Notes under the pieces: generated by a model
What the model was told of the DNA's origin: nothing
Seen by the model: only the letters and a program-made list of their open reading frames with translations
Database searches by the model: none
Made by a program: the position numbers and the translations under genes
In this document: positions 4,601-30,555 of the stretch, piece by piece
Position numbering within the stretch: the stretch's first letter is position 1
Layout: each line of letters starts with the position of its first letter
Assembly: GCF_000215935.2 (NCBI RefSeq)
Contig: NZ_AFNU02000006.1
Location: 62,001 to 126,000 of the forward strand
Reading direction: 5' to 3'
Length of the DNA: 64,000 nucleotides
From: Haloplasma contractile SSD-17B
GTDB lineage: Bacteria > Bacillota_I > Bacilli_A > Haloplasmatales > Haloplasmataceae

Positions 4601-6356
4601 GAATGATAATAACATTACATCTATTAAATCGCTACAAACAGGTAGTAGTGTTCTAGATGCACTAACTCAACTAGAGTATTTAAACCTGAGGGAAAATACA
4701 ATTACTGAACTCACGGGTCTAAACAACATGGTAAATCTAGAAGAACTGTACTTACCTACTACTATTACAACGTTCAAAGATACATTATCCGGAACAAACT
4801 CATTAAGAGAAATAAATAAACAAGAACCTAAGAATCTGTTTAGCCAATTTGATGTCACTGTAAAAGACCTTGTCATTGATAATAGTTTTAATAGTCATGC
4901 ATTTAATCAAATTTACATGCAGGCAGGGTTTAATGAGACAATTTCAGGTTCATTTAAAAAGGTGACACACTTAGATTTAAGTCATACAGCATATTCAACC
5001 TCAACACAGTTATCATTTATTAAAGACATGGACTCCCTAACAACTCTTATTTACAATGGAACTAATATACAGACTCTAAGTAATGTAAATTGTAATGCCA
5101 ACCTATCTGAATTAGATTTATCTAATTCATCCATTACTACAGTTAGTAATAGTTTTGTAAACTGTTCAAGTCTTAAGGAGATTAATCTATCAAACACAGG
5201 AATTAATGACTTTACATTTATTGAATCGAACACTAATTTAGAGAGTATAGACTTGAGATCCCTTACTATTGATCTTGATACATTTACACTCGATATCTCA
5301 AATATGAGTCAATTATCTCAAGTCGATTTAAGCGGAACATCAATTCGTGTGCTCGATAATAGTTTTAATAATAACAACAAGGTAACAAATATAATCTTTG
5401 AATCAGCGGCACGTATTAAAAATTCATTTAATAATCTACCTAACTTTAAGAAAAATTCGTTTAGTAATACACTTTTCTTAATAAGTCCGGAGAATCAAAT
5501 TCATATAGATCATTCGTTTAATCAGACTTCTTCTATAAACGATATTGAGTTTGCAAACTACAATACGTCTGTATACATATCAGACTCATTTAACGGTGCT
5601 ACAAATGTAGGCTCTCTTTCGTTCAAGGATCCTAGTCGGGTATATGAACTTTCTGGGTTCAATAACACTAGTTTAGCTGAGTTACAGGGATTTGAAAATC
5701 TACAACTTATAGAAGGATTTGAACAGGCAAAGCTTTCAGCAATCGAACTAACAAGTGAACACATTACAGATGCAATGATAAATGAACTAATTACAAATAT
5801 CGACCAATCATCTGTTGAAATTTTCACCATTGCTAACTCGAATTATGTATCACAGGCTACATTAAATAACATTAATAAACTGCAAAACTTAGAAGATCTA
5901 ACGATTCGATACATTGATAACGTTAATCATATTGACTCGATAAGTTTAGAATTAGTCAATCAATTAAAGTTCTTTAAATTTGAACATGATACCCCTGATG
6001 AAAATCGAATTATTGATGTGTTGGCACGAAAAACAACAACTACTACTATTTTAAGGATATACCCAGGAAATTCTGGTATTGACTATGAGACTTCATTGCG
6101 TTCACTATTTGAAACCAATATAAGGTCGAATAGTTCATACATGAATACTTTAGAAACAGAAATCACGAATCAGTATGATCAGGAGTTAAGGGAGACTTTA
6201 GAGACACAATATCCAGATGAATCGTATGATGAAATTACTATTCGATTAAATGAAATAAAACAAGAAGCAGCCTATTCTATAGAGATTACGAACAGAATTA
6301 ATAATACGATTCTAGAACAAGTTGATGATAAAATGAGCAAGTATTTGATTTACTAA
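1659..6356 (+). CDS. Large leucine-rich-repeat (internalin-like) lipoprotein
   Basis: 1,565 residues. A lysine/arginine start, hydrophobic stretch and LSSC lipobox with Cys22 predict a lipid-anchored surface protein. From about residue 85 to 1400 there are repeated 20-24-residue LRRs of bacterial internalin/SDS22 type (L..L..L.LS.N.I..I..L). Two LRR blocks, about residues 450-545 and 1075-1340, are interrupted by irregular units carrying an SFN(N) motif, more like BspA-type repeats. The last 150 residues are charged and helical. LRR surfaces bind proteins or polysaccharides; the ligand is unknown. The gene is coupled to the FtsX-type permease upstream, so the two may form an envelope complex (inference). 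A hairpin terminator follows, so this is the last gene of its operon. Confidence 0.9.
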   Translation: MFRNKWFNSLILFIAVLILSSCSDRGENEFLPEYCSTYNEFIYTTSDDFYDLLLDNGYTIDKDSYYESVVDVKTITYNEQITLKDDEMDLNGIECFPYIKKIELEGKSIKDLSPLTELKRVEQLTINNTRVMTLLPIRNMVKIKSLTVTNNANLRDLNGIESFSRLQTVDLSRNRLINISKLELLTNLEHIVLKDNDIQTIDSLSTLPKLTYLDIEHNRVDFNEKDTISGFKKLETLKGKSNRICETRAFSSFEQLKFLDLSDNNLMNALNDSSCTLTEPDFTFLNKVTTLESFYVTENELKNLDSLNDAKISHLKELNLSKNKLSSIEPLFYNQSIQNGSLTTLNISDNEPLTTIAGIHKIDSLEVLNARNNSINQIEDLFLLNNLVDADLSSNKIVALPNTVTQSGDVLLPAIQTLNLSNNNIESIDNFRENGSLITINLTDNNVKEISNSFNNMTELKTVLLTDVTKDDGKENQIAYIEDSFNNLANLEFEETGILRFNFTTKADTGNGDGLKIIGSFNEMEQFTSVDMTNYGVSMIDEDSFMLNNVLEFNASQNSLETLDWINNLPNLMALLVGDNKISVPNASTFEQSNVRILDLGNNKLVDIDFLQYMPGLELVNLESNFIDDVSVFNGKRHEFKELKELSLKNNQVQRVNGLTDLPSLTTLNLMENEITEINGVNDQPALSNLPTLTDLYFGNETHLTKINGLNALGITELDLKTITSQEVEISSVSLSDNHNMTELDISDKLILDGISNLQHGFSFISNLDYLESLNLSNTGMTDLTPLSNLTQLKMLALNYNHSVAEGQSLTDLSPLENLKNLEILALDGNNIQDVSTLQDYPNLEILSLQENNIGTLNGINQMPNLNMLSLYMNPIHTIDGLNNIGLDSLSLNSFAITEITSDSLKDNHFTDLDLSNQSLTNIEFTKNLTYLDTLNLSHNALTNISSLSYLKNLKELDLGHNNIDDISKLGTLSSLQKLYLNDNNITSIKSLQTGSSVLDALTQLEYLNLRENTITELTGLNNMVNLEELYLPTTITTFKDTLSGTNSLREINKQEPKNLFSQFDVTVKDLVIDNSFNSHAFNQIYMQAGFNETISGSFKKVTHLDLSHTAYSTSTQLSFIKDMDSLTTLIYNGTNIQTLSNVNCNANLSELDLSNSSITTVSNSFVNCSSLKEINLSNTGINDFTFIESNTNLESIDLRSLTIDLDTFTLDISNMSQLSQVDLSGTSIRVLDNSFNNNNKVTNIIFESAARIKNSFNNLPNFKKNSFSNTLFLISPENQIHIDHSFNQTSSINDIEFANYNTSVYISDSFNGATNVGSLSFKDPSRVYELSGFNNTSLAELQGFENLQLIEGFEQAKLSAIELTSEHITDAMINELITNIDQSSVEIFTIANSNYVSQATLNNINKLQNLEDLTIRYIDNVNHIDSISLELVNQLKFFKFEHDTPDENRIIDVLARKTTTTTILRIYPGNSGIDYETSLRSLFETNIRSNSSYMNTLETEITNQYDQELRETLETQYPDESYDEITIRLNEIKQEAAYSIEITNRINNTILEQVDDKMSKYLIY

Positions 6357-22146: not shown

Positions 22147-22393
22147 ATTAAAATCGATCTTATCAATAAAGAAATCAGTTCATTTCTAATCGAAATGGTC
22201 GAAGTTTGTATGAATATCATGTATAATAGAATTAAAAAAATATGAAAATTTAAAACTATTTGCTCGAGAAAATTGTATATATTAATGACAGCCTACTTAT
22301 AATTAATAAAAAAGTTGAATCGTTAATGAACGTGAACAACCATAATTAGACTAGTATACAATGCTCGATCAGTGTAGATAATGAGGTTATAAT
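22147..22393 (+). promoter_or_regulatory. Leader of the sigma/ABC cluster with possible ECF-type promoter
   Basis: This AT-rich region has no ORF. TGAACA (22333-22338), 16 bases, then TATACA (22355-22360) resembles an ECF promoter more than a sigma-A one, since many ECF -35 elements contain GAAC. Autoregulation by the sigma factor of this operon is inference. GAGG about 10 bases before the ATG is the ribosome site. Confidence 0.35.
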
Positions 22394-23599
22394 ATGATGC
22401 GAATGATTTTATGGGAGTTCAGAAAGATAATTGAAAATAAACTATTATTGTTTGTTAGTTTAGTGGCCATTCTAATAGCTATGCTTATCCCAGGACCGAG
22501 TGAACGCTATTTACACACATTAAACATTTATAAACAATATCCTGGAGAATTAAGTATATATTATGACGAAATCTATGATGCTTATAAAGAATATGAGGAA
22601 ATTTTTGATACGTGTAGTAAAGAGAAGATTAATAATAAAAAATCTGCATGTACGTTCACAGACAATCCTGCCGTTCGAAATAAACTAAAGGTTGAATATG
22701 AAACACTGAAATATATAATTAGTCGTATAGATGAATCAAGAGAAATACAAACTGTATCTATAATGGGGAATTCTACTTATGAATCGTTTCACCAGTTTGA
22801 TTATGATTTGCAAGAGACTAATTTTGGAAATAGAGTTTTACTTGAGAAAAATAACAAGATTGAGAGTTTTGAGAAACATGCAGGTATATATGCATCAAAC
22901 AATGAGTTTTTAATGAACTATCGCTATAATTATGTTCGGACTATGGTTTTAATAGTTGCCTGTCTCATGGTAGGAGTAATTCCAGTCTTTATGAGTGAAC
23001 GACAGTTTAAGACCAACTCGGTAATAACATCGAGTAAAACAGGGCGTTCAGTAGTAATCAGTAAGATTGTTGCGACAAGTTTACTTGGACTGATGATGTT
23101 CTTTATCCTATATGGAATACATGTATACAGGTTTGGAATAAATGCAGGACTAGGATATTATTGGAATAACCCTGTTGCAAGTGGAGGTACTTATCCTAAG
23201 ATGCGGGAATTGATGTTTAGTCAATTCTTTACTTACTATTCAGCATGGGGACTTACTTTAACACTGTTTTCTTCATTCGTTTTATTACTCATCTCAAAAT
23301 ATAGTAAACGAATGCTGATTGGGCTAGTCACAGCTTGCTTGTATTTTATCTACCCTTATATATATGATTATTTTAATCTTAAACTCGATACTGGGATTAG
23401 CTATATCCTGAAATACTTAAATCTCGCTGCAGCGATCCAATATTCTAACTATTTCTTGCTATTTGGTAGTACAAATTATACAAGAGTCACCGATTATATA
23501 TACTGGGGAAGAGATGTTCTTCTTTTCCATTCAATTACTTTGACCTTGTTATTTACAGTACTGGTTTACTATTCCTTGAGAAGAGAAAACGTAAATTAG
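22394..23599 (+). CDS. ABC-2-like permease with large outer loop (paralogue 1)
   Basis: 401 residues. It starts M.RMILWEFRKIIENKL, has one membrane helix (about 16-33), an outer region of about 150 residues with two cysteines 12 apart, and five more membrane helices in the second half. It shares motifs in order with the protein at 26374-27627: LWE.RKI.E.K, YPG.L..Y.D, IPVF, SSKTGR..V.SKI.A, YFIYP and WGRDV. The pattern is that of ABC-2-type export subunits. The sigma factor gene begins 19 bases downstream, so it is the first gene of the operon. Substrate unknown; antimicrobial peptide export or resistance is one possibility. Confidence 0.75.
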   Translation: MMRMILWEFRKIIENKLLLFVSLVAILIAMLIPGPSERYLHTLNIYKQYPGELSIYYDEIYDAYKEYEEIFDTCSKEKINNKKSACTFTDNPAVRNKLKVEYETLKYIISRIDESREIQTVSIMGNSTYESFHQFDYDLQETNFGNRVLLEKNNKIESFEKHAGIYASNNEFLMNYRYNYVRTMVLIVACLMVGVIPVFMSERQFKTNSVITSSKTGRSVVISKIVATSLLGLMMFFILYGIHVYRFGINAGLGYYWNNPVASGGTYPKMRELMFSQFFTYYSAWGLTLTLFSSFVLLLISKYSKRMLIGLVTACLYFIYPYIYDYFNLKLDTGISYILKYLNLAAAIQYSNYFLLFGSTNYTRVTDYIYWGRDVLLFHSITLTLLFTVLVYYSLRRENVN

Positions 23600-23618
23600 T
23601 TTTAAAGGAGTTAATGAC

Positions 23619-24188
23619 ATGGATATAGATGTAGAGCAATTAGTTGTTCGCATACAAAAAAAACAAGACCAAAGTGCCGCAAATAAATTGGTTAAATATT
23701 ATTATAATCAAATATTTGCTTTCATGTATAAACAAATAAATGATGAACACCAAAGTCAAGACTTAACACAGGAAGTGTTTATTAAAATATTAAAAGCGAT
23801 TAATAAATATGATTCAAAAAAAGCATCATTTAGGACTTACTTATATCGAGTAGCTAAAAATCACATAACGAATTACTTTAAATCAAAACTCCATAAAACT
23901 CGCGTAGTAGAAGATGAATATAATCCAGAACAAGATTTTACACCATATGATCTAGATATAGAAGGGCAAATGGTCATTAATGAACAATCAGAAGTTATGA
24001 AGACCTTAATATTAAAATTGCCGGAGGACCAACAGCAGGTAATTCGATTGAGGTACTATGCAGAGTTATCATTAAAGGAAATAGCAAGTGTACAGGAGGT
24101 CAGTCTATCTACAGTAAAATCAAGGCTATACCAATCACAAGAAAAATTAAGAGTAATGATGATTGAAACGGAGGGGTATTATGAATAA
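23619..24188 (+). CDS. ECF-type RNA polymerase sigma factor
   Basis: 189 residues: region 2 (about 25-95) with DLTQEVFIKILKAI and FRTYLYRVAKNHITNYF, a short acidic linker, then region 4 (about 130-180) with LPEDQQQVIRLRYYAELSLKEIA and the recognition helix around STVKSRLYQSQ. No region 1.1 or 3, as in ECF factors. AAAGGAG precedes the ATG. The downstream 6-TM gene overlaps its end by 8 bases, the usual position of an anti-sigma factor. It probably controls this transporter cluster. Confidence 0.93.
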   Translation: MDIDVEQLVVRIQKKQDQSAANKLVKYYYNQIFAFMYKQINDEHQSQDLTQEVFIKILKAINKYDSKKASFRTYLYRVAKNHITNYFKSKLHKTRVVEDEYNPEQDFTPYDLDIEGQMVINEQSEVMKTLILKLPEDQQQVIRLRYYAELSLKEIASVQEVSLSTVKSRLYQSQEKLRVMMIETEGYYE

Positions 24189-24960
24189 GGAAAAAATTAA
24201 AAAATGTGAAATTGAAATTCCATATCCAAGTGAGGAACAGTTAAATAAATCAGTAGAGTACATAGTAAATTTATCTATGGGGAAACAGAATGTATTCAGT
24301 GAGTTTTTTAAAATGGTAAAATCAATTCCGTTTACACTATTGTTTAATAGTAAGGTTACCTTTTTATTTGTAGCATTAATTTATTTCTTTGCTATTTTAT
24401 ATGTTGATATAGCGAATCTATATAACGACCCTAGTCATTATTATCAATTTATATCATTAGTTGCACCTACTGCCTTCATCATTGGTTTATTAGATATTGT
24501 GAACTCAAAAGAACATAATGTTATTAGTTTAGAAATGTCAACTAGGTATAACTTTCAACAACTGGCTGCCTATAAAATAGTGATTCTTTTTGTATATTCC
24601 ATCCTTTTAAATATTGTTATGTTCTTTGCGACCTTATTTATCTCAAATCAACAGACGTTTTATCAGAATTCGATTACTATATTTGATTCTGTCTTACTTA
24701 TGTTCTCCATTCTATTTTTAATTTCATCCGTATCGTTGATCATATTACTTAGATTTACAAATCGATATTTTCCATTTATTGCGCTGACCTCATGGTACTT
24801 GTTCATCATTATGTGTGCCTTTTTGGTTCCAAGCTTATTTGAAAAAAGTATATGGTTATATGTTGCACAACTATTAGCAGTTTTAGTAGGTGCCATTTTA
24901 CACTTCGAACAAATTCGATTTATTTTTAGTAAAAAGTTCCTTGAAAAAGGGGTTGTTTAA
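24181..24960 (+). CDS. Six-TM membrane protein coupled to the sigma factor
   Basis: 259 residues from the ATG at 24181; GGAGGGG (24170-24176) is its ribosome site and overlaps the sigma gene. A soluble N-terminal segment of about 50 residues precedes six membrane helices. A cytoplasmic loop SKEHNVISLEMSTRYNFQQLAAYKI resembles the E..LE..tRY...Q...A.. loop of ABC-2 permease relatives found beside ECF sigma genes in Firmicutes. No zinc-finger anti-sigma motif is seen. It may be an anti-sigma factor, the membrane partner of the next gene's ATPase, or both. The ATPase ATG follows its TAA with no gap. Confidence 0.6.
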   Translation: MNKEKIKKCEIEIPYPSEEQLNKSVEYIVNLSMGKQNVFSEFFKMVKSIPFTLLFNSKVTFLFVALIYFFAILYVDIANLYNDPSHYYQFISLVAPTAFIIGLLDIVNSKEHNVISLEMSTRYNFQQLAAYKIVILFVYSILLNIVMFFATLFISNQQTFYQNSITIFDSVLLMFSILFLISSVSLIILLRFTNRYFPFIALTSWYLFIIMCAFLVPSLFEKSIWLYVAQLLAVLVGAILHFEQIRFIFSKKFLEKGVV

Positions 24961-25830
24961 ATGCTTACTCTTAACAATATTTCTAAAAAATACGGTCGGA
25001 CGACAGTTCTAGAAAACATCCATTATCAATTTGATAACGGAATTTATGGGCTTTTAGCTCCGAATGGAGCAGGCAAGACAACGTTAATGAAACTTATTAC
25101 TACACTTCACTTTCCAAATAGCGGTGAAATTATCTGGGATGGTTGTGATATTACCTCATTAGGTAGTAAATATAGAGACCAAATTGGTTATTTACCTCAA
25201 GACTTTGGATACTACCCACATTATACAGCCCATAAATTTATGAAATACATAGCAGCCCTTAAGGGTATATCGAAGCATGAAGTGTCAAACCGGGTGGACG
25301 AACTGCTTGAAAAAGTAGGTTTAAGCCATGTGAAACGAAAGAAATTAAAGAAATTTTCAGGTGGAATGATTCAGAGAATCGGAATTGCACAAGCATTACT
25401 GAATGATCCCAAAATTTTAATATTAGATGAACCAACCGCAGGCTTAGATCCAAAAGAACGAGTTCGATTTAGACAAATGTTATCTACGTTGGGTAAAGAC
25501 CGCATTGTAATCATTTCAACTCATATTGTCTCAGATGTTGAGTCCATTGCTAAAGACATCATATTAATTAAAGATCGTACTATATTTAAATCGGGAAAAG
25601 TCTTTGACATTAACAACGAATTAGAAGGAAAGGTATGGCAGGTTAACGTTAATGAGGAGGATGCACATAAACTAGAGAAAAACCATGTTATTATAAATAA
25701 AAATATATCCACTGATCATTATAGTTTAAGAATCGTATCAGAAACGATACCTCATAATGCCGCAATTCTTACAAAACCTAATCTTGAAGACGTGTTTATC
25801 TATTATTACGGCGAAGACCTCTTGTTATAA
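24961..25830 (+). CDS. ABC transporter ATP-binding protein
   Basis: 289 residues. Walker A is APNGAGKTT (about residues 36-44), Q-loop in YLPQDFGYYP, signature FSGGMIQR, Walker B ILILDEPTAGLD, and the switch histidine in ISTHIV. The C-terminal 75 residues form a divergent accessory domain, as in drug- and peptide-export ATPases. It abuts the 6-TM gene and closes the first transcription unit; a terminator follows. Likely partners are the 6-TM protein and the two paralogous permeases. Confidence 0.92.
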   Translation: MLTLNNISKKYGRTTVLENIHYQFDNGIYGLLAPNGAGKTTLMKLITTLHFPNSGEIIWDGCDITSLGSKYRDQIGYLPQDFGYYPHYTAHKFMKYIAALKGISKHEVSNRVDELLEKVGLSHVKRKKLKKFSGGMIQRIGIAQALLNDPKILILDEPTAGLDPKERVRFRQMLSTLGKDRIVIISTHIVSDVESIAKDIILIKDRTIFKSGKVFDINNELEGKVWQVNVNEEDAHKLEKNHVIINKNISTDHYSLRIVSETIPHNAAILTKPNLEDVFIYYYGEDLLL

Positions 25831-25831
25831 G

Positions 25832-25868
25832 GAGCTTAGTTATACTATTACTAAGCTCTTTTTTTTTT
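25832..25868 (+). terminator. Rho-independent terminator after the ABC ATPase
   Basis: GAGCTTAGT pairs with ACTAAGCTC around nine bases, followed by ten T. Confidence 0.92.
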
Positions 25869-26373
25869 GAAAAATAGTGATGTATTTAAAACTTTTCTTA
25901 AATCTCTGTTGTATATATTATTGAGGGGTTAGAAATGGGTATATATAGAAAGGGTTTAAGTGTAGATTATATAAGCTGTAGAAGGTGTTATTAATGTTAG
26001 AACAAGGGGTCAGTTAGTGGGTAAGAAGAGGTTAGTAGTCAAGTTCGGGTTTATGATTATTGAGATTAGGGGTTATTCATTTAAAAGGCTAAAGGTAGTA
26101 TGGTAGTTTTATTTTATAAAGCACGAATAGGGTAATGAAGGTGTTATAGATATAGTAAGGCAAGAATTATTTAAAATTGAAAGAAAAGTAGTGTTAAATG
26201 GGTATTATTTATGTAATAAAAATTAGGGTTATTTTGAAAAGGTTATATTTTATTTATATATAATGATTTGTTTTACATTTTAAAGTGTCTACATGAAACA
26301 TAGGGTATTGAAAAGGGTTATATTCACATATAGAAATAGTCAACAAGCTTTAAGGGTTTAAAGGGGTTGTAGT
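25869..26373 (+). other. G-rich, C-depleted 505-base spacer with repeated GGG tracts
   Basis: No long ORF. By eye count there are only about 23 C in about 500 bases on the plus strand, while G tracts of three or four occur about 14 times, usually as (T/A)AGGGTT-like words at irregular spacing. The only plausible tiny ORF is at 25935-25994. The start of the spacer follows a strong terminator and its end is the GGGG ribosome site of the second permease, so part of it may be an unusually long leader. AT-rich -10-like strings occur (e.g. 26259-26264). Function unknown. Confidence 0.6.
25935..25994 (+). CDS. Possible 19-residue peptide
   Basis: ATG at 25935 preceded by GAGGGG with good spacing; 19 codons then TAA. 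The peptide is basic and contains a C-x-x-C (ISCRRCY near the end). It lies between the ABC ATPase and the second permease. AT-rich DNA makes such ORFs by chance, so the call is weak; a leader or secreted peptide linked to the transporter is the interesting alternative. Confidence 0.2.
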   Translation: MGIYRKGLSVDYISCRRCY

Positions 26374-27627
26374 ATGGTTAGAGTGGTACTATGGGAATTA
26401 AGAAAGATTGTAGAACGCAAAATAGTGTGGGTATTGATTCTATTATGTGTTGTACTTGCATTTGTTTTTGAAGGAACGAGTTCATATAGGTATGAATATG
26501 GGAAACAATTTGATGAAAGGGACTTATATCGGTATAGTATTGAATTAGAAAAGAAATATCCCGGAGCATTGAATCAATATTCAGATCAAATTAACGAACA
26601 CTACAACGAACTGAATAACCAATATGAAGCATTAGTAAGAGAGTGTACAGGTAATATAAAGGATTGTAAAAATGAACCTTATATAAAATTTATGACTAGC
26701 AAGAAAATTTACGATTTATTAATTTACAAAGATTTGAAGAATGCGATTGAAGAAGTAGATAAGAGAAATCAGGCAAACTATACTAGAAACAACAATACTA
26801 ATGAAACGCTAGCAGAATACATGAATGAACAAAGTCCACTAAAGAGTAAATTTATAGCACTTAAAATAGAACGATTAGAGGATTTAGAAAAAGAGAAACC
26901 TGTTGTATTTATTAACCATGAATTTGTAGTTAAACAATACATAGATGGCGTTGTATTTTATTCGTTTCTCCTTCTCATAATTCTAGTAGTAGCGTTAATT
27001 CCTGTCTTTGCGTACGATTATGATTATCGAACAAACTATTTAATTGGATCAAGTAAAACAGGAAGACAACTTGTTTTTAGTAAGATAATTGCGAGTCTCT
27101 TTTTTGGAGTAGTAATCTACACACTATTTTTTATAATACATTCTATACGTTTTATGCTAAACAATAAAGTTCAGTCTATTTTTATGAATCCTCTTTACGA
27201 TTTAAATAATAATGATTTTATTCCCTGGAGAGACATTACACTGGTTGAGTTTATTATTTATTATTGGGGTTATATTTTTGTTCTTATTATTATTTCAATT
27301 CTAATTATTTTACTCATATCAAGATTAACAAAACGAGTAATGTTTGGAGTTATTTTTACTGTATTTTATTTCATCTATCCTTTTTTAATAGACAATCTAT
27401 TAAGGTTTAATTTAAAATTTAAATATCGTTATATCGTCAATTACTTGAATATTTCGAAAGTATTTGCACACTCAGACCGTTTACTTATAATTGGTGATCC
27501 CTATCAAATCTGTGGGTATGAATATCAATTTTGGGGAAGAGATGTAATCATACTAAATGCTTCGTTACTAATTTTACTATTAGGGTACACAAGCTATCGA
27601 TTTATCAAAAAAATTGATTTTAATTAG
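26374..27627 (+). CDS. ABC-2-like permease with large outer loop (paralogue 2)
   Basis: 417 residues with the same plan as the permease at 22394: an N-terminal LWELRKIVERK signature, one helix, a roughly 170-residue charged outer region with a cysteine pair (C-x6-C), then five helices. Shared motifs include SSKTGR..V.SKI.A, YFIYP and WGRDV at the matching places; the loops are diverged, so this is an old duplication. AAAGGGG precedes the ATG. It probably joins the ATPase at 24961 as an alternative or second permease. A bidirectional terminator follows. Confidence 0.75.
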   Translation: MVRVVLWELRKIVERKIVWVLILLCVVLAFVFEGTSSYRYEYGKQFDERDLYRYSIELEKKYPGALNQYSDQINEHYNELNNQYEALVRECTGNIKDCKNEPYIKFMTSKKIYDLLIYKDLKNAIEEVDKRNQANYTRNNNTNETLAEYMNEQSPLKSKFIALKIERLEDLEKEKPVVFINHEFVVKQYIDGVVFYSFLLLIILVVALIPVFAYDYDYRTNYLIGSSKTGRQLVFSKIIASLFFGVVIYTLFFIIHSIRFMLNNKVQSIFMNPLYDLNNNDFIPWRDITLVEFIIYYWGYIFVLIIISILIILLISRLTKRVMFGVIFTVFYFIYPFLIDNLLRFNLKFKYRYIVNYLNISKVFAHSDRLLIIGDPYQICGYEYQFWGRDVIILNASLLILLLGYTSYRFIKKIDFN

Positions 27628-27664: not shown

Positions 27665-27701
27665 AAAGAGGCAATTAAGTTTAAAACTTAATTGCCTCTT
27701 T
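27665..27701. terminator. Bidirectional terminator with perfect 17-bp stem
   Basis: Arms 27665-27681 and 27685-27701 pair perfectly around TAA. The minus-strand side runs into T5, so it chiefly ends the amino-acid transporter operon. Confidence 0.85.
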
Positions 27702-27704
27702 AGC

Positions 27705-28475
27705 TTATCGTTTATGAAGGACACGTCTTAAGAATTCTTGTGTACGTTTATGGTTCGGTTTTGTAAAGATGTTTTCAGGGTTACCTTGCTCTAATATATA
27801 GCCATCATCCATAAAGACAACACGGTCTGCTACTTCACGAGCAAATTCCATTTCATGTGTAACGACCACCATCGTCATTCCACTGTTAGCAAGTTTTCTC
27901 ATAACATTTAGTACATCTCCTACCATTTCAGGGTCAAGAGCACTAGTCGGTTCATCAAATAACATAATGTCAGGTTGCATAGCAAGAGCTCTTGAAATTG
28001 CCACGCGCTGCTTTTGACCACCTGATAAACTACTAACAGGAGCGTAAAGAAAATCACTCATACCGACTTGATCCAGTAAATCTTTTGCTAGGTCTTCGGC
28101 TTCTTCTTTGGATCGATCTAGTACCTTTAATTGACCAAGTGTACAATTGTCGATGACATTTTTATTATCAAAGAGATTAAAACTTTGAAATACCATACCG
28201 ATTTTAGTTCGTAACTTATTTAGATCAGTGTCAGGTGATGTTAAGTCCCATTCTTCTGTGACTGCTTCATCCTTTTCTGATACATTGAATAGAATATTAC
28301 CTTCATCGGGTTCTTCAAGTAAATTTAAACATCTTAGTAATGTTGATTTACCACTACCTGAAGGACCAATAATACAGATTACTTCACCTTTGTTTACCTC
28401 AAAGTTAATATCTTTTAGTACTTCAAGGTTTCCAAAACTTTTTCTAAGATTTTGTATTTGCATTAATTCCGCCAC
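27705..28475 (-). CDS. Amino-acid ABC transporter ATP-binding protein (likely lysine)
   Basis: 256 residues, polar amino-acid uptake type. Walker [10 protein letters not shown] near residue 38, Q-loop MVFQSFNLF, signature [17 protein letters not shown], Walker [12 protein letters not shown], switch VVTHE. A GTG start at 28475 gives a spaced AAGGTG site and overlaps the permease gene by 32 bases; an in-frame ATG lies four codons later. Last gene of the binding protein-permease-ATPase operon controlled by a lysine riboswitch, so it probably energises lysine import. Confidence 0.93.
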
Positions 28476-29364
28476 GGTTAAACACCTTCTTTATAAATGA
28501 TTGACTTGTAGGGTAAGAGTCCCCTTTTGAAACTCCAATTTTACTACTGATAAAGTATAAAAGACGTGTAGTCGTTAGGGTTAAAATTAAGTAAATGATC
28601 GTTGCGATGAAGAATCCTTCTGTTTGACGGTAATAAACACCATTTACTCGTGTTGTCATAAAGAATAGTTCAGCAATAGGAATGATCATAAGTACTGATG
28701 TATCCTTAATATTAATTACAAACTCATTACCTATAGCAGGGACACTATTTTTTAAGGCTTGTGGTATGATGATATTCATCATAGCCTGCCATCTTGTCAT
28801 GCCTATACTTCTAGCAGCTTCCATCTGTCCTTTATCAATTGCATTAATACTTCCACGTAATACTTCTATAATATAAGCAGATGTGTTAATTGAAACAATG
28901 ATGATACCATATAATAGTTTATCATAAGTAGTTCCGAATCCTGTAACGATTCTTAAGCCTAGACCAATACTACCATAGTAAAATACAACAGCCTGTACAA
29001 TCATGGGTGTTCCACGTAATATGTCAACATAGACTGTTGAGAAAATGACTCCAATTTTCTTAACTGTTGATGTTACTAAATCATCACGCTTAGAGATTAC
29101 CTGAATCTTTAAAGGTACAATCAGAACAGCAATGATTAATCCAAGTAGAGTACCAGTTAAAGCAATCAATAATGTATACATCGTTCCTTCAAAGAACATA
29201 CTTCTAAACTTAATTGCAAGATAGAGTACCGCTTTAAAAAAATCTTCTGGTACTTGATCTGTATATAAAAATGGGAATAGTTGTTCAAAAAATGCATGAA
29301 ACCAATCTGATATACGTTCGGATATTCCCATATTAATTGTTTTTGATGTTAGTGCATATAACAT
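28444..29364 (-). CDS. Amino-acid ABC transporter permease (likely lysine)
   Basis: 306 residues, HisM/GlnP-type permease. About 60 extra N-terminal residues precede the five-helix core. The EAA loop is [28 protein letters not shown], shown here in part by EAARSIGM near residue 200, and [14 protein letters not shown] near 230 is typical of polar amino-acid permeases. The AGGAGG site is 8-9 bases before the ATG. Lies between the binding protein and ATPase genes. Confidence 0.93.
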
Positions 29365-29427
29365 ATTATTTTCCTCCTAAAAAAAACAATAAATAAGGAG
29401 CAACGTTTGCTCCTTATCATTTATAAA

Positions 29428-30264
29428 TTAATTTGAACTTAGATTCACGAAACTATTCATCCATTCATTTCTAGTTTCGTCTGATATTCCCGCTAATATG
29501 CGGTTAATTTCATCTCGTAATTCTGTGTCTTCTTTTCTTAATCCTACAGATGATGCAACATCAGCATCTGCTAATGTAAAGCCATTCCCTGATTCAAACT
29601 GAATGATTGTTAGGAATGAATTTGTGCTCGCTTGCTGCTGTGCAACAGGTAATTCAGCAATAAATCCATCAATTTCTCCAGCGTCTACAGCACCAACTAG
29701 AGTAGGATAATCCTTTTTAGGATCTTGCGTTAATACACCAGTCATTTGTTCAATTAAACGCTCTTGTAGCGTGTCTTTTTGAGCACTAATCGCTGCCCCT
29801 GCAAAGTCTGTTATTGAAGTGGCATTAGTAAATGCACTATCGCTATCGACTACAACAACTTGAACTTCTTCAGAGCGGAAGTAAGGATCTGAGAATGCAA
29901 TTGTTTGTTTGCGGTCTTCAGTTGGTGACATTCCTGCAATAATTACATCGATTTCATTAGAAGTAAGGGCTGGTATAATACCTGACCAATCTAATGCTTT
30001 TACTGATAACTCAACACCTAATTCATCTGCAATTAATTGAGCGATTTTAACGTCGTATCCATCACAGTATTGGTTTTGGCCATCTATTTTTACAGCAGTA
30101 TCCGATTCTTTTTCAACTGTTGTCCAGTTATATGGTGCATACGCACACTCCATACCTACAGTTAAAACACCATCATCAATTGGTCCTTGTTCATCTTGTG
30201 AACCACACGCTGCTACAGTTAATGTAACTACTCCTAAAATTAAAGCTATTAATACCTTACGCAT
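29428..30264 (-). CDS. Amino-acid substrate-binding lipoprotein (likely lysine)
   Basis: 278 residues, family-3 solute-binding protein. Signal peptide and lipobox VAAC (Cys20) anchor it outside the membrane. The family pattern is clear: TVGMECAYAPYNW, GYDVKIAQLIADELGVEL, IPALTSNEIDVIIAGMSPTEDR and FSDPYF. It hands a cationic or polar amino acid to the permease; the riboswitch upstream points to lysine. AGGAGG precedes the ATG. Confidence 0.94.
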   Translation of the reverse strand: MRKVLIALILGVVTLTVAACGSQDEQGPIDDGVLTVGMECAYAPYNWTTVEKESDTAVKIDGQNQYCDGYDVKIAQLIADELGVELSVKALDWSGIIPALTSNEIDVIIAGMSPTEDRKQTIAFSDPYFRSEEVQVVVVDSDSAFTNATSITDFAGAAISAQKDTLQERLIEQMTGVLTQDPKKDYPTLVGAVDAGEIDGFIAELPVAQQQASTNSFLTIIQFESGNGFTLADADVASSVGLRKEDTELRDEINRILAGISDETRNEWMNSFVNLSSN

Positions 30265-30327: not shown

Positions 30328-30379
30328 GCTAACTCAATCAACTTAATCATATCTACCTATAGAAGATATATGATACAAG

Positions 30380-30535
30380 TGATAGCGCCACTACTTAAGT
30401 AGGAGTACTACAAGTATTCCTTGTAGTCCCACGAATCATGTATACCTACAGACTCGTTCGGCGATGTGTACCTTTCAAATGCTTCAATGCATGCCTGCTC
30501 CACATTATACTAATTAACACCGCAACCTCTATCTA
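30380..30535 (-). ncRNA. Lysine riboswitch (L-box) aptamer
   Basis: On the minus strand the leader starts GATAGAGGTTGCGG, contains TTAGTATAAT, then GAAAGGTACACATCGCCGAA (the conserved GAAAGG...CGCCGAA core), a P3-type hairpin ACGAGTC/GATTCGT, a hairpin ACTACAAG/CTTGTAGT, the P5-like CTACTTAAGTAG hairpin, and GGCGCTATC closing P1 with GATAG. Order and core words match the L-box aptamer class that binds lysine. The terminator downstream would form when lysine is bound and stop transcription of the importer. Confidence 0.88.
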
Positions 30536-30555
30536 TTTTTTTATGTTACCTAGAG

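Follow-up and report, generated by a model that had tools for sequence, protein, structure and literature searches.

A probably autoregulated sigma factor and ABC exporter cassette in Haloplasma contractile, with relatives in many families of Bacillota

We analyzed a stretch of 64,000 nucleotides from Haloplasma contractile SSD-17B (contig NZ_AFNU02000006.1, positions 62,001 to 126,000; hereafter the window), in which five co-directional genes encode an extracytoplasmic function (ECF) sigma factor, a protein with six transmembrane helices (6-TM protein), an ATP-binding cassette (ABC) ATPase and two permeases. With a probability of roughly 0.6, these genes form a self-contained autoregulated exporter cassette composed of the sigma factor, a restrainer (the 6-TM protein), one ATPase and a two-permease exporter. 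This reading was built from the computed conservation of the genes, a promoter and its restricted distribution, the paralogy of the permeases, and the predicted folds. The layout described in an earlier, sequence-only reading of the same DNA was borne out: permease 1, the sigma factor, the 6-TM protein and the ATPase are tightly packed (Table 1), the 6-TM gene starting 8 bases inside the sigma gene, and a spacer of 543 bases separates the ATPase from permease 2. Relative to the gene order most often found elsewhere, the cluster of the window is rearranged.

The conservation of the neighborhood was evaluated by scanning a genome collection with the ATPase alone, disregarding the sigma factor. 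The 80 loci with the most similar ATPases were kept, and their neighbors were classified with profiles of the remaining cluster genes. The exact order sigma, 6-TM protein, ATPase, permease A, permease B was found in 53 loci, usually with overlapping starts and stops. A further 16 contained the sigma and 6-TM genes with the ATPase but departed from this order by having one or three permeases, by a rearrangement or by running into a contig end. A sigma gene followed by a 6-TM gene accompanied the ATPase in at least 69 of the 80 loci, and the conservation is far above chance. The expectation that permease, sigma and ATPase genes recur jointly was thus confirmed well outside the window. The hosts comprise Bacillaceae, Paenibacillaceae, Planococcaceae, Peptostreptococcaceae, Lachnospiraceae, Oscillospiraceae, Christensenellaceae and Bifidobacterium. 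In the class and phylum of the window the 6-TM family is rare (2-4 of about 395 genomes). One genome of the same family (G005) has the ATPase and a permease followed by the sigma and 6-TM genes, while a genome of a different family in the same phylum (G058) has the sigma and 6-TM genes, a gap, and then the ATPase with permeases A and B. This gap (L007 8510-8641), directly after a strong sigma promoter of the kind described below, holds a possible open reading frame (ORF) of 43 residues, which has a ribosome-binding site and includes a hydrophobic segment.

Most of the remaining loci encode a divergent sigma factor and, in the equivalent place, a different protein of about 250 residues with five to six transmembrane helices. 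In L043, L049, L069, L070, L074, L083 and L090 the cluster takes this divergent form, in which a distant sigma factor, the different membrane protein and the ATPase are accompanied by one permease; the conserved promoter was present in none of these seven. No additional gene was common to the surroundings of the 80 loci. A plasmid search yielded no homologue of the 6-TM protein, and PADLOC gave no match. A single-sequence search of 60 relatives with permease 1 recovered only permeases 1 and 2; it missed the permease of G005 and was too insensitive.

A common promoter pattern precedes the sigma gene. The word AAACT-N16-CGAA was found upstream of sigma in 37 of 68 loci and AAACT-N19-ATAT in 41, with at most 6 in shuffled sequences. 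The family pattern AAACT-N16-CGAATA was refined to the consensus TgAAACTATTT-N10-TTACGAATATAT, which scored above 10 bits in 63 of the 68 loci and is usually located 45-80 bases upstream of the start codon. A matrix trained on the other loci, the window being excluded, was then run over both strands of the window. Its two best matches lie ahead of the two permease genes, one in front of each (Table 1), and the third-best reached 7.2 bits. The sequence-only reading had assigned the control of the cluster, permease 2 included, to the sigma factor; a predicted sigma promoter stands before both permeases, and therefore the regulon probably does include permease 2. A scan for sigma-70-type promoters returned no more matches than shuffles.

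The genome-wide regulon was searched with patterns rather than with the matrix. The exact pattern common to the two window sites occurs only twice in the 3.4-Mb genome, and sites with three mismatches were at the level of a reversed-pattern control. In 30 other carrier genomes the family site was found at the cluster, the exact site essentially once per genome, with extra one-mismatch sites at about the control level. Because the site is essentially confined to the cluster in these genomes, the sigma factor looks dedicated to its own cluster and would control apparently nothing else. Furthermore, nearly every unsplit cluster carries one site, before sigma, and the split clusters carry a site on each unit. 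In the window, the units are permease 1-sigma-6-TM-ATPase and permease 2. In G058, they are sigma-6-TM and ATPase-permeases (sites at L007 7039 and 8404), and in Romboutsia (L019) sigma-6-TM-permease and ATPase-permeases (sites at 5305 and 7908). In G005, the units are ATPase-permease and sigma-6-TM, the sites having been read from the shared two-part word and not scored by the matrix. This recurrence of the predicted site on every unit of a split cluster is the best evidence that the sigma factor would drive both itself and the exporter.

The two permeases are clearly related (BLASTP, 29% identity over about 400 residues, E 1e-41), and the ordered motifs claimed to be common to both are all present and in order. 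Neither Pfam nor NCBIfam gave a match above cut-off for the permeases, and no convincing curated-family match was obtained with single sequences or aligned families; weak ABC-2 matches were restricted to a few permeases. In the permease model (pLDDT, the predicted local distance difference test, 79.8), a type V transmembrane domain carries a helical insert on its outer side, at about residues 37-165. PmtD and NosY match this model best (probability 1.0, E 0.003-0.1, target TM-score 0.5-0.6), so that the fold is that of a type V (ABC-2) exporter, the sequence match being weak. The sequence-only reading had given each permease an outer region with a cysteine pair. The regions are there (about 138 and 150 residues, cysteines 74/86 and 91/98), while the pair turned out to be lineage-specific, occurring in 4 of 54 permeases: the two of the window, one relative of the same family (G005) and one unrelated-looking case.

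In a maximum-likelihood tree, first- and second-position permeases formed two clades (support 97/85), with L014 carrying permeases of the two clades in reverse order. Distances among permeases A and among permeases B were correlated with r 0.94, the highest value of any cluster gene pair. Because most loci hold one member of each of these two ancient paralogous clades after one ATPase, the sequences make the two permeases more likely partners than alternative specificities, and the latter proposal of the sequence-only reading is not favored. The joint retention of two paralogous clades, as expected of a heterodimeric pair, has exceptions with one or three permeases. These exceptions would suit homodimeric exporters of different substrate specificities that share the ATPase, as would the private duplication and divergent outer regions of the window permeases and the separate transcription unit of permease 2. 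We nevertheless consider such alternative halves unlikely, given the inheritance of one permease from each ancient clade in most loci, the distance correlation of the pair, and the location of both permeases under the same sigma promoter.

The window permeases are mutual nearest relatives (100/100), and trees joining either of them alone to clade A were rejected (p 0.003 and 3e-5); on these trees, therefore, the pair descends from a private duplication. One reading is that one permease half was lost in a lineage and then replaced through duplication, which would stress the need for two different halves. The two permeases of the cluster in L047 (8897-11597) are also sisters, independently of the duplication in the window.

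Judged from adjacency and topology, the 6-TM protein is a plausible candidate anti-sigma factor. Its gene adjoins the sigma gene in all loci examined, split or unsplit. In the model (pLDDT 85.6), cytosolic helices at residues 18-32 and 38-48 precede six transmembrane helices, the first at residue 58. Two cytosolic helices before a membrane anchor are the feature of class II anti-sigma factors such as CnrY, whose cytosolic part has two helices (PMC7406223). Class I anti-sigma factors have a four-helix N-terminal domain of about 100 residues on average, with an HxxxCxxC motif in many members (PMC7406223); this class was rejected, as the 6-TM protein has only about 57 cytosolic residues, two helices and no such motif. 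Conserved positions are grouped in the N-terminal tip (I25, I28, G at 32, F55) and in a stretch after the second transmembrane helix, TM2 (E at 116, Y123, Q127, A130, R at 132). No Pfam or NCBIfam match was found for the protein, singly or as an aligned family.

The eight best fold matches of the 6-TM model are all exporter transmembrane domains (PmtD, NosY) with weak scores (E 0.08-1.4, TM-score at most 0.45), and a profile comparison with the permeases gave a probability of 8%, the alignment covering the TM2-coupling stretch. The body of the modeled protein may possibly be a permease derivative. These matches, the weak profile alignment over the post-TM2 stretch, and the conservation of this cytosolic stretch where permeases have their coupling helix would also fit a role within the exporter, as an additional permease-like membrane subunit that partners the ATPase, with the sigma factor controlled by its synthesis or by another factor. 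However, in the split clusters of G005 and G058 the gene stays with sigma and not with the ATPase, the protein carries the two-helix N-terminal extension, and neither the fold matches (E above 0.07, TM-score about 0.45) nor the profile probability is strong; a subunit role appears rather improbable. A bolder version of the candidate anti-sigma role, which we regard as doubtful, would make the 6-TM protein an ABC permease turned anti-sigma factor. Its post-TM2 coupling stretch would dock on the ATPase and its two-helix tip would bind sigma, placing sigma release under the direct control of the exporter's working state.

The sigma protein contains regions 2 and 4 only (PF04542, Sigma70_r2, 65.9 bits; PF08281, Sigma70_r4_2, 50.2 bits) and scored 120 bits against the ECF model TIGR02937 (cut-off 42.9), which identifies it as an ECF sigma factor. 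It was below the cut-off of every named ECF subfamily model tried. The ATPase carries the Walker and signature motifs of ABC ATPases (PF00005, ABC_tran, 110 bits), and its nearest solved structures are of the ABCA type. Self-immunity exporters for bacteriocins or lantibiotics of the LanFEG kind share the plan of one ATPase with two permeases, and the corresponding model TIGR03740 gave the ATPase 172 bits. This score is, however, well under the cut-off of 309.75, the permeases match no immunity family, and the 80 loci have no conserved bacteriocin gene next to the cluster, which leaves such a function very improbable. The membership in a known bacteriocin-immunity family that the sequence-only reading had named as fatal to its proposal was thus not found, lantibiotic-immunity cut-offs not being reached.

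From these results we infer how the sigma factor would be sequestered and released by the 6-TM protein, how the permeases would pair, and which signal and substrate may be involved. The ECF sigma factor would transcribe essentially its own cluster only, i.e. itself, the 6-TM protein, the ATPase and the two permeases. The 6-TM protein, translationally coupled to sigma, would most likely tether it at the membrane through the two-helix N-terminal tip. Load or overload of the exporter, an envelope insult or altered membrane surroundings would change the state of the 6-TM protein and free the sigma factor, which would then transcribe the cluster and yield more exporter as well as more restraint. 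The exporter itself would be one type V ABC machine, with an ATPase dimer beneath two unlike permease halves; the helical regions on the outer side of these halves would handle a substrate that is probably membrane-active or lipid-like. The envelope response suggested by the sequence-only reading is a guess. In the window, the repetition of the promoter before the detached permease 2 would keep all parts co-induced.

Several observations weigh against this scheme. In simulated windows of the same composition the mean maximum score was 9.1 bits, and 1 of 60 reached 19.1 bits, so that a single site is weak; the strength of the predicted promoters lies in both top matches falling in the two predicted intergenic stretches and in their close mutual resemblance. 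The -10 element TGTATA of the window differs from CGAATA of the family. Transcription of permease 2 from its assigned promoter would include about 450 bases of leader, and a promoter closer to the gene is possible. Two permeases are not universal, since G005 and the divergent subset have one beside the ATPase. Finally, the co-evolution of sigma with the N-terminal tip of the 6-TM protein was not clearly above that with other parts: in a mirror-tree analysis the partial correlation was 0.43 versus 0.20, with zero inside the interval of this difference, and the permeases were equally high.

The features of the cluster are collected in Table 1. For the 6-TM gene, the ATG with its ribosome-binding site is a more likely start than the listed TTG at 24163. 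The hairpin at the end of unit 1 was absent from the list of the consensus terminator scan. No other 400-base stretch of the window is as poor in C as the leader of unit 2, through which GGGG- and GGGTT-like words are scattered. Small-ORF, Rfam and fold analyses of this leader revealed no sizeable ORF, no Rfam match and an ordinary folding energy. Downstream of the cluster, an amino-acid ABC uptake operon (27705-30264) probably carries lysine, because a lysine riboswitch lies upstream of it (30375-30539, minus strand).

Table 1. Positions in the window of the cluster genes and of the predicted signals around them.
Feature	Position	Strand	Description
Predicted sigma promoter, unit 1	22245-22289	+	-35 AAACT 22253-22257, -10 TGTATA 22274-22279; 19.2 bits, top match in 64 kb
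Permease 1	22394-23599	+	401 aa; fold of type V (ABC-2-like); outer region helical, about 138 residues
ECF sigma factor	23619-24188	+	189 aa; 19-base gap after permease 1
6-TM protein	24181-24960	+	259 aa; own ATG and ribosome-binding site; candidate anti-sigma factor
ABC ATPase	24961-25830	+	289 aa; 0-base gap to 6-TM gene; ABCA/GldA-like, C-terminal extension
Terminator-like hairpin, end of unit 1	25832-25868	+	GAGCTTAGTTATA/TATTACTAAGCTC then T run; inverted-repeat search
Predicted sigma promoter copy before permease 2	25881-25925	+	-35 AAACT 25889-25893, -10 TGTATA 25910-25915; 16.8 bits, second-best in 64 kb
Leader of unit 2	25926-26373	+	C-poor (4%), before permease 2
Permease 2	26374-27627	+	417 aa; sister of permease 1
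Terminator-like hairpin after permease 2	27665-27701	unstranded	common with convergent operon on minus strand

A literature search found no description of the cluster; the 2021 ECF reclassification was outside its scope, so a group number may exist. The cassette is apparently widely conserved and without a name. Present across many families of Bacillota and in Bifidobacterium, with its promoter about once per genome, it would rank among the simplest known sigma-controlled transport circuits and be easy to test or reuse. The analysis also gives a likely role to a 6-TM family and to a permease family lacking Pfam and NCBIfam entries.

Among described arrangements, the SigY operon of Bacillus subtilis (sigY-yxlCDEFG) is the closest; there too, the genes of an ECF sigma factor and of a type V ABC exporter belong to a single operon. 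The main target of sigma Y is this operon itself, which includes small regulators of the YxlC type. In contrast, the gene following sigma in the window encodes a 259-residue 6-TM protein and not a YxlC-like small regulator, and the window sigma is far under the cut-off of the SigY equivalog model NF007216 (69.9 bits versus 194). The exporter of the SigY operon has one permease type, YxlF2G2 (PMC11466899).

Among the type V exporters PmtCD, NosFY, B. subtilis YtrBCD and the YhcHI hybrid, the permease fold of the window is nearest to PmtD and NosY. YtrB2CD resembles the cassette in pairing one ATPase with two permeases, and YhcHI in its helical coiled-coil outer domain. The cassette differs from all four in having no convincing sequence-family match, an outer helical insert of about 140 residues and a dedicated sigma factor. 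The two cytosolic helices before the membrane part of the 6-TM model recall CnrY, from which the protein differs by its six transmembrane helices and permease-like body, with no detectable sequence relation. In joining a transporter to its own regulator as a self-tuning module, the cassette is analogous to the Bce-type modules of ABC transporter and histidine kinase, although it uses a sigma factor instead of a two-component system and a type V instead of an FtsX-like permease. If the 6-TM protein were a permease-derived anti-sigma factor, it would couple ABC transport directly and physically to transcription, and the cassette would be the sigma-based counterpart of the Bce modules.

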